From an uncultured Candidatus Saccharibacteria bacterium (GTDB taxonomy: Bacteria; Patescibacteriota; Saccharimonadia; Saccharimonadales; Saccharimonadaceae), in assembly GCA_946406315.1 (NCBI GenBank), contig CAMJKD010000001.1, forward strand, positions 62,001 to 126,000: DNA of 64,000 nt. Reading direction: 5' to 3'. Position numbers and translations under genes: made by a program. The notes beneath the pieces are model-generated. The model saw nothing but the letters and a program-made list of their open reading frames with translations, searched no databases and was not told the DNA's origin. Each line of letters begins with the position of its first letter. Positions within the stretch are counted from its first letter, which is position 1. Below, one piece after another: positions 17,102 through 24,422 of the stretch.

Positions 17102-17368
17102 ATGAGGGTGGTAGTTATTTGGCGTGACGAATCGGATTATGCGCGTTCGATTGTCGAGTGGCTACATGATTGCGAGCGACGAGTTGGGGTGGCACCAGAG
17201 AGTCTTTCTCCGGATGAACCAGAAGGTGAAAGCCTTTGTAGGGCATATGATATTGTAGAATATCCGACAATCGTCGCGATAGATGATCAAGGTAAAATGT
17301 TACAAATGTGGCGCGGAAGAGACCTGCCGCGAATTGACGACGTTTCGTACTATTTGCTAGAACGCTAG
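17102..17368 (+). CDS. Thioredoxin-fold protein without CxxC
   Basis: The 88-residue protein has the end of a thioredoxin fold. It reads CRAYDIVEYPTIVAIDDQGK, with the cis-proline YPT loop, then a beta strand and the terminal helix (LPRIDDVSYYLLE). The N-terminal half has the beta-alpha part (VVVIWRDESDYARSIVEWL) but no CxxC redox site. It is therefore unlikely to be a disulfide reductase of the standard type. It follows the NrdR-like gene by 3 nt, so the two are probably co-translated. A link to ribonucleotide reduction is only suggested by position. Confidence 0.65.
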   Translation: MRVVVIWRDESDYARSIVEWLHDCERRVGVAPESLSPDEPEGESLCRAYDIVEYPTIVAIDDQGKMLQMWRGRDLPRIDDVSYYLLER

Positions 17369-17386: not shown

Positions 17387-17395
17387 TGCTATAAT
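17387..17395 (+). promoter_or_regulatory. Extended -10 promoter of the ileS T-box leader
   Basis: TGC-TATAAT (17387-17395), a consensus extended -10, places the transcript start near 17402, at the beginning of the T-box leader. Confidence 0.7.
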
Positions 17396-17401
17396 GCAAG
17401 C

Positions 17402-17580
17402 ATAAAGCGTTTGAGCAGCAATCAACTGCGAGCTGGCGAAAGAACGACGTAGCTAGTGCGAGAAGTTAGGTCTAGTAGAATCGCCCGTGAATCTGCGTGA
17501 AGGAATAATCGAGTGCTAGAGTAATCTAGAAATTGGATGGTACCGCTCCGAGGAGTTCCAATGTTGATTGGAATTTTTTT
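17402..17580 (+). ncRNA. T-box riboswitch leader of ileS
   Basis: The leader of about 180 nt contains the T-box core TGGTACCGC (17538-17546). The bases 5'-UGGU-3' can pair with ACCA of uncharged tRNA-Ile (discriminator A). ATTGGA (17532-17537) can pair with TCCAAT (17557-17562) to form the antiterminator. The competing terminator uses TTCCAAT (17556-17562) and ATTGGAA (17567-17573) followed by Ts to 17580. Stem I should lie in 17405-17500. Candidate Ile (ATC) specifiers are at 17421, 17480, 17491 and 17508, and I cannot choose between them. Expected action: read-through into ileS when tRNA-Ile is uncharged. Confidence 0.85.
17556..17580 (+). terminator. Attenuator terminator of the ileS T-box
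   Basis: A 7-bp stem TTCCAAT/ATTGGAA with loop GTTG and a run of eight Ts. It is mutually exclusive with the T-box antiterminator. Confidence 0.85.
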
Positions 17581-17605
17581 ATACAAAAGAAGGGAGCGTG
17601 TAGAC

Positions 17606-20488
17606 ATGAAGTATAAATATGGTGAACGGCGCCGAGCGAGTGAATACGAAAAAGCTTTGGTTGAGTTCTGGAAGAAAAACAAGACTTTCGAGAAGTCGGT
17701 CGAAAACCGTCCGATTGATAATTCTTATGTGTTTTATGATGGTCCGCCGTTTATTACGGGCAATCCACATCACGGCACACTTCTTTCTAGTGTCGTAAAA
17801 GATGCGGTGCCGCGTTTTTGGACAATGAACGGAAAGCGCGTAGAGCGTCGTTGGGGTTGGGATTGTCATGGTTTGCCGGCGGAAAACTTTGTTGAGAAGC
17901 AACTTGGTATTACGGATAGGCGCGAGATTGGTACGAAGTGGTCATTGGAGAACTATATTACGAAAGCGCGCGAGTCGATGGTGGCGAACTCTGAAACTTG
18001 GCGCGGTACGATTGATCGAATTGGTCGTTGGGTCGATTTTGATAATTGTTATCGGACGATGAATAAGGACTTTATGGAGTCTGTCTGGTGGGCTTTTAAG
18101 ACTCTTTACGAAAAGGGGAAAATTTATGAGGGCGAAAAGGTTTTGATGTACGATACGAAGTTTGCGACCCCCGTTTCGAAAGCAGAAGTGACAATGGATA
18201 ATGATGCATATCAGACGGTAACCGATCCAAGCGCGTATGTGAAGTTTAAATTGGCGGATCGCGATGAGTACGTGCTGGCCTGGACGACTACGCCGTGGAC
18301 TTTGCCAGCCAACATGGCGCTAGCAGTGTCTAAGACGCTCGAATATGGCCTGTATGACGTCGAAGGCGAGAAAATGGTTATGGCTAAGGATTTAGCAAAA
18401 AAACTCGTTGGAGAGGACGCTGAGGCCCTTAAAACGTATTCTGGTAAAGACTTGGATGGTTTGAAATATGTGCCATTGTTTCAAATGGATGACGAGATCG
18501 CGCATGATGAAAATGCGCATAAGATTTGGGCGGCAGACTTTGTATCGGCAGAAGATGGTACGGGTATTGTGCATATTGCACCAGCTTATGGCGAAGATGA
18601 CTATGCATTAGGAAAACGTAATAAAGTGCCAGTGCGCCACACGATTGATGATAATGGTTATTATTTCCCGGAATGGGCAGAAAAATTACACGAAATTGGC
18701 GTGCGCGATACGGATGAAAACGGTATTGAAGTTTGGGCAGGTAATAAGTTTATTGCGAAGTGCCTAGAGGCGAAAGGTATTATTTGGAAGATTGAATATA
18801 TCAAGCATGAATATCCATTTAATCCGCGCAGTAAGCAGCGTATCATGTACCGAGCGTTTCCAAGCTGGTTCTTCGATATTGAAGGTAGCAAGCCTTTGAT
18901 GCTAGAGAAGAATGAGGATATCAATTGGTTCCCGGCGCATTTGAAGCATGGCCGTTTTGCGAAGAATATTGAGCAGGCGCCAGATTGGAATTTGTCGCGC
19001 GATCGTTTTTGGGCAACGGCGATGCCGGTATGGAGAGGTGATAAAGGTACGCTGAAGGTGGTAGGTTCTTACGATGAACTATACGAGCTGTCTGGAGTGC
19101 GATTAGAGGATTATCATCGACCATGGATTGATGCGGTTGAGTTTGACATTGATGGTGAGCATTTTAAACGCATTGATAAGGTACTAGATTGCTGGTTCGA
19201 ATCAGGCTCGATGCCATTTGCGCAGCTACATTACCCATTTGAAAACAAGGAAAAATTTGAAAAGAATTATCCGGCCGACTTTATCGTGGAATATGTCGGT
19301 CAGGTGCGGGCGTGGTTTTATTATGTCCATGCGGTAAATACGGCTTTGTTTGGCGAATGTGCCTATAAGAACGTAATTACAACTGGCACTTTGGCTGGCA
19401 ATGATGGTCGCAAGATGAGTAAGTCGCTCGGTAACTATACGGATCCGAACGAGTTGATGGATAAGTATTCGGCGGACGCTTTGCGCTTTCAATTATTATC
19501 TAGTCCGGTGTTGGCGGGTGAAGATTTTGCCTTAATTGATAAGGATGTTTCTGATACGGCGCGTAAGTTGACGATGATTTGGAATGTGTATGACTTCTTT
19601 ACAATGTATGCGAGTGTAGATGGTTGGGAGTACAAGGATAAGAAGCTGACTGCGCCAGCGAAGTTGAAAAATGAGTTGGACAAGTGGATTGTGAGTCGTG
19701 CTTATCAGTTACGCAATGAGATTACGGAGAATATGGAGACTTACAATATTCCAGCTGCGTTGGCAGGAGTGTTGCCGTTTGTGGATGACTTGTCGAACTG
19801 GTTTGTGCGTCGTAGTCGTCGTCGTTTCTGGAAGTCTGAGTCGACGAATGATAAAAACGAGGCTTATGTGACTTTACATTTTGTTTTAAGCTATACGGCT
19901 TTAATCTTAGCGCCGTTTGTACCATTCTTGGCCGAAGAACTTTGGCAGAATATGATGGGTGGCGAAAGTGTACATTTGCAAGATTGGCCAGAAGCGGGCG
20001 AAATAGATGAAGCAATAATTAAGAAGATGGCGGATTGCCGTAAGATTATTACGGATGGTTTAGCTTTGCGCATGACGCGCGACGATGGTTTTGGTCAGAT
20101 TAAGGTGCGTCAGCCTTTGGCCGAGTTGGAATATGGTGGCGAAAAGCTAGAGGAATTTTATGAGAATATTATTGCGGAAGAAGTCAATGTGAAAAAAGTG
20201 ACGCACGGCAAGGTGTTGAAGCTTGATAAGGAATTAACCGATGAATTGAAGGCAGAAGGTTTCGTGCGTGAGCTAATTCGTTTTGTGCAGTCGGCGCGCA
20301 AGAAAGCAGGCTTAAATGTTGATGATCGAATTAAGTTATCAGTGTCGGCGGAGGTGCCGAAGGAACATCTAGAGATGTTGAAAAATGAGGTTTTGGCAAC
20401 CGAATTTACGAATAATGGTAATTACGATTATGATGAAATTGTGAAGATTGATGGTGAGAATGTGTCTTTGTCATTAGAAAAGGCATAA
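17606..20488 (+). CDS. ileS: Isoleucyl-tRNA synthetase
   Basis: The 960-aa class I synthetase charges tRNA-Ile and edits Val-tRNA. The start is set at ATG 17606 (MKYKYGERRR) after AAGGGAG; the longer reading begins inside the T-box. The HIGH-type motif reads HHGT within FITGNPHHGTL. The editing CP1 domain contains a TTPWTLPAN motif, and KMSKSLG lies near residue 602. A Val/Leu/Ile anticodon-binding domain follows (RRSRRRFWKSE). Size, HHGT and absence of a C-terminal four-cysteine zinc site suit the archaeal/eukaryotic-type IleRS found in many Gram-positives and CPR. That class is generally mupirocin-insensitive. Confidence 0.96.
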   Translation: MKYKYGERRRASEYEKALVEFWKKNKTFEKSVENRPIDNSYVFYDGPPFITGNPHHGTLLSSVVKDAVPRFWTMNGKRVERRWGWDCHGLPAENFVEKQLGITDRREIGTKWSLENYITKARESMVANSETWRGTIDRIGRWVDFDNCYRTMNKDFMESVWWAFKTLYEKGKIYEGEKVLMYDTKFATPVSKAEVTMDNDAYQTVTDPSAYVKFKLADRDEYVLAWTTTPWTLPANMALAVSKTLEYGLYDVEGEKMVMAKDLAKKLVGEDAEALKTYSGKDLDGLKYVPLFQMDDEIAHDENAHKIWAADFVSAEDGTGIVHIAPAYGEDDYALGKRNKVPVRHTIDDNGYYFPEWAEKLHEIGVRDTDENGIEVWAGNKFIAKCLEAKGIIWKIEYIKHEYPFNPRSKQRIMYRAFPSWFFDIEGSKPLMLEKNEDINWFPAHLKHGRFAKNIEQAPDWNLSRDRFWATAMPVWRGDKGTLKVVGSYDELYELSGVRLEDYHRPWIDAVEFDIDGEHFKRIDKVLDCWFESGSMPFAQLHYPFENKEKFEKNYPADFIVEYVGQVRAWFYYVHAVNTALFGECAYKNVITTGTLAGNDGRKMSKSLGNYTDPNELMDKYSADALRFQLLSSPVLAGEDFALIDKDVSDTARKLTMIWNVYDFFTMYASVDGWEYKDKKLTAPAKLKNELDKWIVSRAYQLRNEITENMETYNIPAALAGVLPFVDDLSNWFVRRSRRRFWKSESTNDKNEAYVTLHFVLSYTALILAPFVPFLAEELWQNMMGGESVHLQDWPEAGEIDEAIIKKMADCRKIITDGLALRMTRDDGFGQIKVRQPLAELEYGGEKLEEFYENIIAEEVNVKKVTHGKVLKLDKELTDELKAEGFVRELIRFVQSARKKAGLNVDDRIKLSVSAEVPKEHLEMLKNEVLATEFTNNGNYDYDEIVKIDGENVSLSLEKA

Positions 20489-21233: not shown

Positions 21234-22934
21234 ATGGAAAGAAGAGAAGAAGCTCCAGAAAGAAGTGAAGCTCGCAGCGAGAAAGAGCGTGGCGCGGATC
21301 TTTGTAGGCACAATGGGCTAACGTATAGTGAGTTTTTGGCGGCCGCAAAGGCTGCAATGTCGGATTTTAAGATTGCAGATTTGAATTCTGGTAAATATAG
21401 TCATGAACAGATGGACCAAATCGAAGCACAGGCGAATGCTGCGCGTGAAGCGAAAATGCGACGTCCAAGTGCTCCAGAAGCACATCCGAGTGGTGCTGCT
21501 CCAGCTCCGGTTGCGGAAAATCGTTCAGAAACACCAGCAACGCCGGAAGCGACGAGAACGGATAGTTCTGAGAAAAGTAGACGGTTTGGCAAAGCCGCAA
21601 CGGCCTTTGGCGGATTAGCTTTGGCTGGTTTTATTGGTGCTGGTATTGGCACTGGCGCATACAATACATTAAATAATGCAAAAAACGTTGGTGAGGCTAA
21701 TGCTGCTACTGCATCGGGAGATTCTCAGGAGCAGGAAAATGGCCAAGTAAGCGAGGCGGCGGAAGCGCATGAAGCGGGCGAAGTCCTCGATGTTACCGAC
21801 AATTATCGTGGTCGTTACGCTGATGATACGGGAAATTATACAAACCCAAACAAGATTGGTCGCAATGGTCAGGAGGCGCCGTATAACTTTGGTGAAGCAT
21901 ATGAATTTACTACTGAGGAAGCTTTTCGTGAGGAAATTCAAGAGATTGCAAAGCATGAGCCGGCAATGTTTGCGGCTTGGTATTATGATTTGGACGATTC
22001 CGTAAAGGTGCCTGGTACGGAAAAAATGTCGATGGCTGAATTACAGAATCTCATGAACGAAAATGATGATATGCATCGCAGAATGGTTGAGCAATTTATT
22101 TCAATTTCTGATAGTGGAAAGTTTAATGAGGATACGATTACTGGTGATTATACTAATGTATTTGCGCGAACAACTGGAGGTGATGGTATACAAATTACCT
22201 CTGTTAATACCGAGCCAGTACATTGTACAACTCATGAGAATGGTTCTAAAGTCGTAGTAATGTCCTACTCGGTCGGTAAAGATAAAACGGCTTCAATTAT
22301 TTTCCGTCAAGCTTGTGGTTTACAGAATGTACGCATGGTTGGTACGCCTGAATCTGAGAGAATTATTACTTCTACGCCGGAGATACCTACTCCGGAACCG
22401 GATAAGCCCAGCGGCGACCACGAAACACCTCCGAAGACTCCAGAGACGCCTCCGAAAACTCCAGAGACGCCGCCTGAGACGCCGCCGGAGACCCCAGAGA
22501 CGCCTCCTGAAACGCCGCCGGAGACTCCAAAAGAAAAGACTCCGTTTGATGAAAATGAAGTATTTCGCGATGACGATGCCGGAGACACTTGGGAAGCGGA
22601 TCCTGGCGCTATAACTGAAGATACCGTCACAGAAGAGCCAGACATTCCTGCGCAAGAAGATTTTTATGAGGATACTGGCAATTATGAAGAACCGACACCC
22701 GTAAATGAAGATGCACAAAATGCCGTGCAGGATACGTCCAATCAAGTTTCGCCCGAAGTTCAAGCAGCAAATGAGGAAGCAGCCGAGCAGCAAGAAGCAG
22801 CAAATGAGGCTGGTCATGAGGCTAACCAAGCCAATGACGAGCGTGAGGTGCGTAGTGCGGCAGAAATAGAAAACGATCTCGCCGATTACGCAAATGATGA
22901 TGGTACGATTAATCCTGATGACATTCCGTACTAA
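21234..22934 (+). CDS. Single-pass membrane protein with PETPP-rich linker
   Basis: The 566-residue protein has a cytoplasmic N-terminal part with a small helical unit (LTYSEFLAAAKAAMSDF and SHEQMDQIEAQANAAREAK). One membrane segment follows (about residues 121-142, GGLALAGFIGAGIGTGAYN), then an extracellular domain of about 220 residues with a cysteine pair (PVHCTTHE and RQACGLQ). A Pro/Glu/Thr linker repeats TPPETPPETPETPP units. The C-terminus is acidic and Ala/Glu/Asn-rich. There is no sorting signal, so the anchor is the membrane segment. The DYR/Tyr-Ala-Asp-Asp-Thr-Gly-Asn motif occurs twice (about 199 and 482). Function is unknown; a host-contact or wall-spanning stalk is plausible. 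Confidence 0.7.
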   Translation: MERREEAPERSEARSEKERGADLCRHNGLTYSEFLAAAKAAMSDFKIADLNSGKYSHEQMDQIEAQANAAREAKMRRPSAPEAHPSGAAPAPVAENRSETPATPEATRTDSSEKSRRFGKAATAFGGLALAGFIGAGIGTGAYNTLNNAKNVGEANAATASGDSQEQENGQVSEAAEAHEAGEVLDVTDNYRGRYADDTGNYTNPNKIGRNGQEAPYNFGEAYEFTTEEAFREEIQEIAKHEPAMFAAWYYDLDDSVKVPGTEKMSMAELQNLMNENDDMHRRMVEQFISISDSGKFNEDTITGDYTNVFARTTGGDGIQITSVNTEPVHCTTHENGSKVVVMSYSVGKDKTASIIFRQACGLQNVRMVGTPESERIITSTPEIPTPEPDKPSGDHETPPKTPETPPKTPETPPETPPETPETPPETPPETPKEKTPFDENEVFRDDDAGDTWEADPGAITEDTVTEEPDIPAQEDFYEDTGNYEEPTPVNEDAQNAVQDTSNQVSPEVQAANEEAAEQQEAANEAGHEANQANDEREVRSAAEIENDLADYANDDGTINPDDIPY

Positions 22935-22967: not shown

Positions 22968-24422
22968 ATGCTAAAGCAAAATAATACAAACTTTAAACGG
23001 AGATTGATAGTTGCAGGTTTGTCGGCATTGACGCTTGCGGTATTGGTGCCGGTCGCATCTACTTCGGCTTGGGGTCCGGATCGTCCAACCTACAAGATGA
23101 AAACGCCGCCCGATCATCCGACTTTCAACTCTATCACCGATAATAATATTATTGGTGATGAACGAGATTTTGTGCGTGTGACTGAGGTTGGCGGTAATGG
23201 TAAGTATGTTAATGAGCTTAAAATTACCCCAGGTAAGACTTATGAAGTTTATATATTCTATCACAACAATGCAGCTTCGAATTTGAATGCGAGCGGTAAG
23301 GGTGTTGCTGATAAGGTGAAAGTGCGCTCGACTTTTCCGTCAAAGATAAATTCGTCTAACAAGGGCACAATTAATGCAACTATTTCGGCGGCAAATACGG
23401 CCCCGGCATCGGTGTGGGACGAGGCTTATTTAACGACCGATTCGAAGCAGGATGTCGAGTTGCATTATGTCAATGCGACTGCGAAAATTAAAAACCAGGG
23501 TAAGCTTAATAATACTATTTTAAGTACTGAACTCTTTACAACTGGCGATTACATTGGCTACAACTCTTTGAGTGGAACATTGCCTGGCTGTAGCGAATTT
23601 TCTGGTCATATCGTTTATCATATTCGTGCAGAGCAAGCGGGGTCTTCAGTTGAGAAGGCGGCTTCTATAAATGATAAAGACTTCTTTAAAGACGTAACCG
23701 CTAAGCCTGGCGATACTGTTACTTACAGGATTACCTTTAAGAATAGCGGCTCAAAGGATTTAACGAATGTTACTTTTCGTGATCAACTACCTTCTGGCGT
23801 AACTCTAGTTCCTGGTAGTGTGAGCCTTCATGATACGGGAACTAACAAAACTAGAACTCTTGCAGATGCTATCGTTACTCAAGGCGTCAATACTGGTATG
23901 TTTGGCGAGGGTGTTACTGGTACTATAACTTATAAGGTTAAAGTTAACAGTGATATTGTGAAAAATGGCAGTTGTGGTACGAACTCGTTTAAGAATATAA
24001 TTACGGCAACTACTGATCAAACTGGCAGACAGACTGCGAGTGCGGTTATTAAAGTAGAAAAGGCTTGCGACGAACCGGATCCATGTAGGAATGAGGATGG
24101 TTCAGTAAAGCCTGAATGTTGTGATCAAGAAAAATACAAAGACGAGCCAGCTTGTAAGCCAGACGACGAAGATCCATGCAGAAATGAGGATGGTTCAATT
24201 AAAACCGAATGCTGCGATCGACCGGAGTATAAAGATTTGCCACAGTGTAAGAAAAATCCTACTCCAACCCCAGAATTACCAAATACTGGTCCTGGCGAGA
24301 TTGCTTTAGCCGTAGTAGCTGCGGTCTGTGTAATCACGGGTGTTAGCTACTGGTATCGCAGTCAGAAGGAAGTTGCCGAGGTTCAAAAAGGAATCAAAGG
24401 CGACGGTGATCGCGACAAATAA
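22968..24422 (+). CDS. LPNTG-anchored surface protein with DUF11-like domain and duplicated Cys module
   Basis: The 484-aa protein has a signal peptide (1 to about 34, ending STSAWG), an N-terminal beta-rich domain, then a DUF11/TIGR01451-type domain (about 244-365: KPGDTVTYRITFKNSG and VTFRDQLPSGVTLVPG). Two copies of a Cys module follow (C-R-N-E-D-G-S-[VI]-K-x-E-C-C-D, then Y-K-D-x-P-x-C). LPNTG (about 440), a membrane segment and a charged tail complete a sortase signal. A good Shine-Dalgarno (AAGGAG) precedes the ATG. It lies 33 nt after the PETP-rich gene and is probably co-transcribed with it. The sortase at 56676 is the likely partner. Confidence 0.85.
   Translation: MLKQNNTNFKRRLIVAGLSALTLAVLVPVASTSAWGPDRPTYKMKTPPDHPTFNSITDNNIIGDERDFVRVTEVGGNGKYVNELKITPGKTYEVYIFYHNNAASNLNASGKGVADKVKVRSTFPSKINSSNKGTINATISAANTAPASVWDEAYLTTDSKQDVELHYVNATAKIKNQGKLNNTILSTELFTTGDYIGYNSLSGTLPGCSEFSGHIVYHIRAEQAGSSVEKAASINDKDFFKDVTAKPGDTVTYRITFKNSGSKDLTNVTFRDQLPSGVTLVPGSVSLHDTGTNKTRTLADAIVTQGVNTGMFGEGVTGTITYKVKVNSDIVKNGSCGTNSFKNIITATTDQTGRQTASAVIKVEKACDEPDPCRNEDGSVKPECCDQEKYKDEPACKPDDEDPCRNEDGSIKTECCDRPEYKDLPQCKKNPTPTPELPNTGPGEIALAVVAAVCVITGVSYWYRSQKEVAEVQKGIKGDGDRDK

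Follow-up and report, generated by a model that had tools for sequence, protein, structure and literature searches.

How do Saccharibacteria control ileS, the gene for isoleucine--tRNA ligase? The question is raised by the leader of this gene in a 64-kb stretch of DNA from an uncultured Candidatus Saccharibacteria bacterium (assembly GCA_946406315.1, contig CAMJKD010000001.1, positions 62,001 to 126,000 of the forward strand), called the window below; the genome spans 1.07 Mb in 26 contigs. A preliminary description, made from the letters alone, had assigned the window to a genome of the candidate phyla radiation (CPR), correctly, since it is saccharibacterial, and had proposed a transcription-attenuating T-box in front of ileS. 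With a probability of roughly 90%, the leader is a tRNA-Ile-responsive T-box whose Stem I is ultrashort and of Class III type, and it governs ileS by transcription attenuation. The anatomy, covariation, matching tRNA, conserved terminator and genomic context were read from sequence; we infer tRNA binding, the sensing of charging and read-through from characterised T-boxes.

The T-box in the ileS leader

The Rfam T-box model RF00230 aligns full-length to 17394-17563 with 42.4 bits (E 3.2e-8 in E-value mode on a 401-nt stretch; E 2e-8 when the whole genome is searched). The covariance-model check suggested in the preliminary description thus returns a significant match, though one under the curated cut-off. 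A default Rfam scan of the window reports a tRNA and no T-box, because 42.4 bits falls below the gathering score of 93 bits. Searches with RF00230 and with R1, a covariance model built from Saccharibacteria leaders, find a single T-box in the genome; R1 gives one further match, which at E 4 counts as noise. The core TGGTACCGC is located at 17538-17546.

Nearly all of the nearest relatives of this ileS gene carry the label Candidatus Saccharibacteria, with gut and rumen as the main sources. A T-box lies directly upstream of 31 of 80 related ileS genes, and the TGGTACC core and both competing helices are kept in related leaders, the conservation that the preliminary description had asked to see. 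When the window's leader is aligned with 25 related ones (26 in total), the proposed structure consists of 99.5% standard pairs, with changes on both sides in 19 of its 34 pairs; none of 500 shuffles does as well, and pairing falls to 29-39% once the partners are shifted by 1-3 columns. A broader set, of 33 leaders, is 98% paired and has 25 covarying pairs. The structure was partly read off the aligned sequences themselves, so the paired fraction is flattered, whereas the compensatory changes are not.

The same alignment settles the form of Stem I, which had been suggested to be short or divergent: it is ultrashort, has no distal T-loop module and carries the specifier in its apical loop. The hairpin takes the forms GCAG/CUGC, GUGG/CCAC, GCGG/CCGC and GUCG/CGAC around a constant AUC, and this isoleucine codon is present in every full-length Saccharibacteria ileS leader read. 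The triplet 'AAC', near the specifier position in the Rfam alignment, was rejected as specifier because the covarying apical loop gives AUC. All five basal pairs of Stem II covary, and the letters of its S-turn are nearly invariant. The genome's tRNA-Ile(GAU) has discriminator A73 and an encoded CCA end, to which the bulge UGGU at 17538-17541 is complementary as A73-CCA. Codon AUC and bulge UGGU therefore both fit this tRNA, which bears out the proposed isoleucine specificity and the match of the bulge U to discriminator A.

A degenerate or non-functional T-box remnant 5' of a constitutive ileS would account for the RF00230 score under the gathering threshold, and related lineages do dispense with the T-box. 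It is nevertheless very improbable: the window scores 143.8 bits against R1, its own clade's model (the window being among the building sequences), compensatory changes occur in nearly every helix, and the codon tracks the gene. On the evidence of its conserved helices, the T-box at the ileS leader is confirmed as real and well formed.

The element (Table 1) lies within the range first given, 17402-17580; Stem I itself starts slightly later, at 17406 rather than 17402, and the predicted -10 box sits just upstream. Transcription is predicted to start at about 17402, just 5' of Stem I. The naming of the regulated gene as ileS stands, with its start at ATG 17606. The longest ileS open reading frame (ORF) opens at ATG 17537, inside the T-box, and relatives favour the later start; an automatic gene caller could therefore choose that upstream ATG and so conceal the leader.

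Table 1. Predicted features of the ileS leader and the gene it precedes (window coordinates).
Feature	Position	Strand	Basis or detail
Extended -10 element TGCTATAAT	17387..17395	+	Predicted from sequence; TATAAT-like box also before leaders of relatives, e.g. L031-L035
Ultrashort Stem I, 29 nt	17406..17434	+	AGC/GCU base, K-turn GUUUGA/GA, 4-bp GCAG/CUGC hairpin, 7-nt apical loop CAAUCAA
Specifier AUC (Ile), then A17424	17421..17423	+	AUC constant, flanking stem covaries
Stem II with S-turn	17435..17485	+	S-turn AAGAA 17440-17444 / AGUAGAA 17474-17480
Stem IIA/B pseudoknot	17486..17504	+	One IIB pair U-A or C-G across leaders, 15 to 11
Stem III hairpin	17516..17529	+	Covariation in 3/4 pairs, 100% paired
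Antiterminator	17532..17562	+	T-box bulge UGGUACC at 17538-17544; -8.3 kcal/mol
Intrinsic terminator	17556..17580	+	UUCCAAU-GUUG-AUUGGAA hairpin 17556-17573 and U7 at 17574-17580
Shine-Dalgarno AAGGGAG of ileS	17590..17596	+	Sequence
ileS, isoleucine--tRNA ligase, 960 aa, regulated gene	17606..20488	+	TIGR00392 794.6 bits, cut-off 621.4

The expression platform and its probable mode of action

The antiterminator and terminator share an arm, 17556-17562, which is the 3' arm of the first and the 5' arm of the second; the two helices are mutually exclusive, as had been proposed. The terminator hairpin with its T-run has a stability of -10.1 kcal/mol, equalled by none of 200 shuffles. A hairpin and T-run are kept in 32 of 32 Saccharibacteria leaders, and in 31 of these the terminator is more stable than the tRNA-free antiterminator. 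A transcription attenuator that stays off until uncharged tRNA supports the antiterminator would be laid out in this way. Uncharged tRNA-Ile would pair its ACCA end with UGGU in the bulge and stabilise the antiterminator, letting the polymerase read into ileS; with charged tRNA-Ile the more stable terminator hairpin would form and transcription would stop at the U7 run. Isoleucyl-tRNA synthetase would be made only when uncharged tRNA-Ile accumulates.

Terminators are common 3' of an upstream ORF, and one such frame ends nearby (17102-17368). That the hairpin is merely the ordinary intrinsic terminator of this gene, next to a T-box-like core arising by chance, is scarcely credible: the site is ∼190 nt past the upstream stop codon and 3' of its own promoter-like box, it shares its arm with an antiterminator that is conserved in relatives, and the core is kept in close relatives.

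Several observations weigh against attenuation by an ultrashort T-box: (i) transcriptional T-boxes generally need a long Stem I gripping the tRNA elbow (PMC7583486), (ii) the terminator stem is short and AT-rich, with two G-C pairs in its core, (iii) the leader's plain thermodynamic minimum free energy (MFE) fold does not reach significance (z -1.2), (iv) generic promoter and terminator consensus scans find nothing at the leader site and miss the AT-rich hairpin, and (v) the T-box core of the window (GUACCGCUCC) is unusually complementary to the ileS Shine-Dalgarno region and can also pair with it, at -14.4 kcal/mol (both strands within 17538-17596). The consensus scans are blank because they are too stringent to pick up a stem with two G-C pairs or an extended -10 element. 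With the fold and the terminator scan both weak, the case for the T-box is carried by conservation.

The last of these points leads to a rival, a Class III T-box whose main effect would be on translation, as known from Actinobacteria, with the hairpin and U-run secondary: without tRNA, the freed core ACCGCUCC would pair with the ileS Shine-Dalgarno GGGAGCG. The MFE structure of 17526-17608 contains this pairing, only 0.65% of shuffles form as strong a duplex, and the known ultrashort T-boxes are translational (PMC7583486, PMC10482949). Across leaders, however, a core and its own Shine-Dalgarno pair no better than swapped partners (median -8.1 kcal/mol in both cases), and the sequestration shows no covariation; all that is conserved is the general ability of GCUC to pair with GGAG. 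The hairpin and T-run retained throughout the leaders would moreover be needless for a purely translational switch. A mainly translational T-box is thus unlikely, and the core/Shine-Dalgarno pairing could add a translational layer to attenuation in the window's genome.

Another expression platform is seen in L004, L005, L007, L011, L015, L130 and L145, where the 5' strand of Stem III (e.g. AAAGAATCACTTCTTTTGG) may pair with AAAAGAAGTGATTTTT downstream of the antiterminator. Such pairing would give a long terminator enclosing the entire antiterminator.

Comparison with the known T-box classes

In the four-class scheme, Class III is defined by a short Stem I without an elbow-binding module, an apical specifier and an obligatory Stem II, and is mostly translational, whereas Classes I and II have a long Stem I and are generally transcriptional (PMC10482949). 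Ultrashort T-boxes are described as translational and mostly actinobacterial (PMC7583486, PMC10482949), and fast co-transcriptional capture has been suggested as the reason for the long Stem I (PMC7583486, PMC10482949).

The aptamer of the window resembles the Class III ileS T-boxes of Actinobacteria (Nocardia farcinica, Mycobacterium tuberculosis; PDB 6UFM, 6UFG) in its short Stem I without an elbow-binding module, its apical-loop AUC specifier followed by A, its K-turn, S-turn Stem II and IIA/B pseudoknot, and its target ileS. A single constant offset brings the positions published for N. farcinica (specifier ending at C18, next A19, S-turn A39, an aptamer of 99 nt) into register with the window, a fit that is in part coincidence, since Stem II length varies among relatives. 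The actinobacterial elements differ in sequestering the Shine-Dalgarno and acting on translation initiation, where the window has a terminator and U7. Their apical loop is stated as 5-6 nt (PMC10482949), against the 7 nt drawn in the window and 6-11 nt in other Patescibacteria, and they belong to a different phylum. The likeness may reflect shared ancestry or convergence.

With Class I transcriptional T-boxes (Bacillus subtilis tyrS type, RF00230) the window shares the UGGN bulge, Stem II, the IIA/B pseudoknot, Stem III and an antiterminator competing with a terminator and U-run. Class I differs in its long Stem I, with an internal specifier loop and a distal interdigitated T-loop module; Stem I of the window has 29 nt and an apical specifier. 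In the RF00230 alignment some 47 Stem I model positions are reduced to a few nucleotides, and the hairpin closes over the specifier. The reduced Stem I and apical specifier set the window apart from Class I, despite the Class I-like expression platform. Class IV ileS T-boxes (Actinomyces odontolyticus) share the target and the lack of an elbow-binding module (PMC10482949) and differ in specifier position, which in the window is the apical loop. By its assembled features, the T-box of the window is a Class III-type aptamer, the shortest tRNA-sensing module known, joined to a Class I-type expression platform.

Spread, specificity and meaning in Patescibacteria

T-box surveys list Firmicutes, Actinobacteria, Chloroflexi, Deinococcus-Thermus and a few Proteobacteria (PMC2494555, PMC3766115), and TBDB applied its translational-class model to Actinobacteria and to truncated Class I matches. 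Of the genomes sampled, 127 of 151 in the window's family and 119 of 380 over the phylum have R1 matches. Among the 112 matches that were read (111 from outside the family, plus the window), 109 lie before an aminoacyl-tRNA synthetase gene: ileS in 61 cases, valS in 27, nondiscriminating aspartyl-tRNA synthetase (AspRS) in 11, thrS in three, aspS and lysS in two each, and tyrS, argS and leuS in one each. Cluster representatives and all class II genes were named by NCBIfam, the other ileS and valS genes by similarity to those.

The codon in the apical loop follows the gene: AUC goes with ileS, GUC with valS, ACC with thrS, and AAC or GAC with AspRS. Under a blind rule it is cognate to the gene in 80 of 109 cases, compared with a mean of 33.9 and a maximum of 49 over 20,000 label shuffles; in several of the misses the rule has plainly chosen an alternative hairpin, and these were not corrected so that the rule remained blind. 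Apical codons for the lysS and argS matches were set aside as unreliable: the RF00230 matches there begin 62-71 nt further upstream, which places these elements with a longer Stem I type. In the valS T-boxes of L139, L146, L147, L150, L153, L155, L159, L168, L219, L234 and L245, the apical loop has 10-11 nt and the form AUUAAUGUCA, with GUC at its 3' end; this is a second geometry of the ultrashort Stem I.

The bulge letter tracks the tRNA discriminator as well. T-boxes with UGGA precede thrS in genomes where tRNA-Thr carries U73 (8 of 8 genes, four such genomes), and one genome whose tRNA-Asn has G73 carries, in front of a nondiscriminating AspRS gene, a T-box that combines UGGC with an Asn codon. 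The UGGA elements were seen before thrS in L012, L025 and L030 (the window's family) and L184, L197 and L232 (other families), several with specifier ACC. T-boxes before nondiscriminating AspRS genes carry AAC in L166, L179, L215, L229 and L233 and GAC in L175, L187 and L199, usually with UGGC in the bulge. Those with an Asn codon would respond to uncharged tRNA-Asn, even though it is Asp that the enzyme attaches.

A T-run within ∼100 nt follows 103 of the 112 R1 matches (145 of 560 random stretches from the same loci), and a hairpin with T-run follows 70 (31 of 560); the nine matches without a T-run may have another mode of action. RF00230 at E 0.01 matches 127 of 362 genomes of the phylum, only 13 of them above the gathering score, with lengths of 209-299 nt. 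A full long Stem I is seen in both of the long matches displayed as alignments, and on these alignments canonical long T-boxes occur in the phylum beside ultrashort ones. With so few genomes above threshold, Rfam could show T-boxes in Patescibacteria for few genomes, and not the ultrashort ones. In many Saccharibacteria (L009, L010, L019, L020, L022, L024, L026, L132, L134, L135 and L144) a small ORF, unknown or NUDIX-like, comes first after the T-box, so that ileS is not its immediate neighbour.

Control of ileS has itself changed. Besides the genes with a T-box, 37 of the 80 relatives look leaderless and 12 are neither. The T-box label undergoes at least six changes on well-supported branches of the tree, so T-box control has been gained or lost repeatedly; judged from these upstream regions, the same gene switches between a ∼200-nt regulatory leader and no leader. 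In the relatives that look leaderless (37 loci, within L061-L109) a TATAAT-like box ends a few nucleotides before the ATG. Elsewhere in the window, the product of 22968-24422 is a predicted secreted protein with a signal-like N-terminus, a C-terminal LPNTG motif, a hydrophobic stretch and a basic tail, and in these features resembles a sortase substrate. It is preceded by a protein with proline-rich repeats (21234-22934).

In the literature searched, which takes in only a minority of subscription papers, no paper links the T-box relevantly with Saccharibacteria, Patescibacteria or CPR, and this is not proof of absence. Nor is the pairing of an ultrashort aptamer with a terminator described there; by the matches above it is widespread in the phylum. 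Patescibacteria are likely to possess a large, undescribed repertoire of T-boxes: coupled to terminators, an ultrashort, Class III-type, elbow-blind aptamer would act during transcription, and it would have come to serve Ile, Val, Thr, Asn/Asp and probably Tyr. If so, the tRNA-elbow module is not needed for transcriptional T-box control, and the ultrashort aptamer is neither actinobacterial nor inherently translational; placed on a terminator, it makes the kinetic argument for a long Stem I directly testable. The default Rfam threshold misses nearly all ultrashort T-boxes, and public annotation therefore understates them. Genetic tools could draw on the element as a native switch in a group without inducible expression (PMC11665869), and for host-dependent, ultra-small bacteria it would be a protein-free starvation sensor on synthetase genes.
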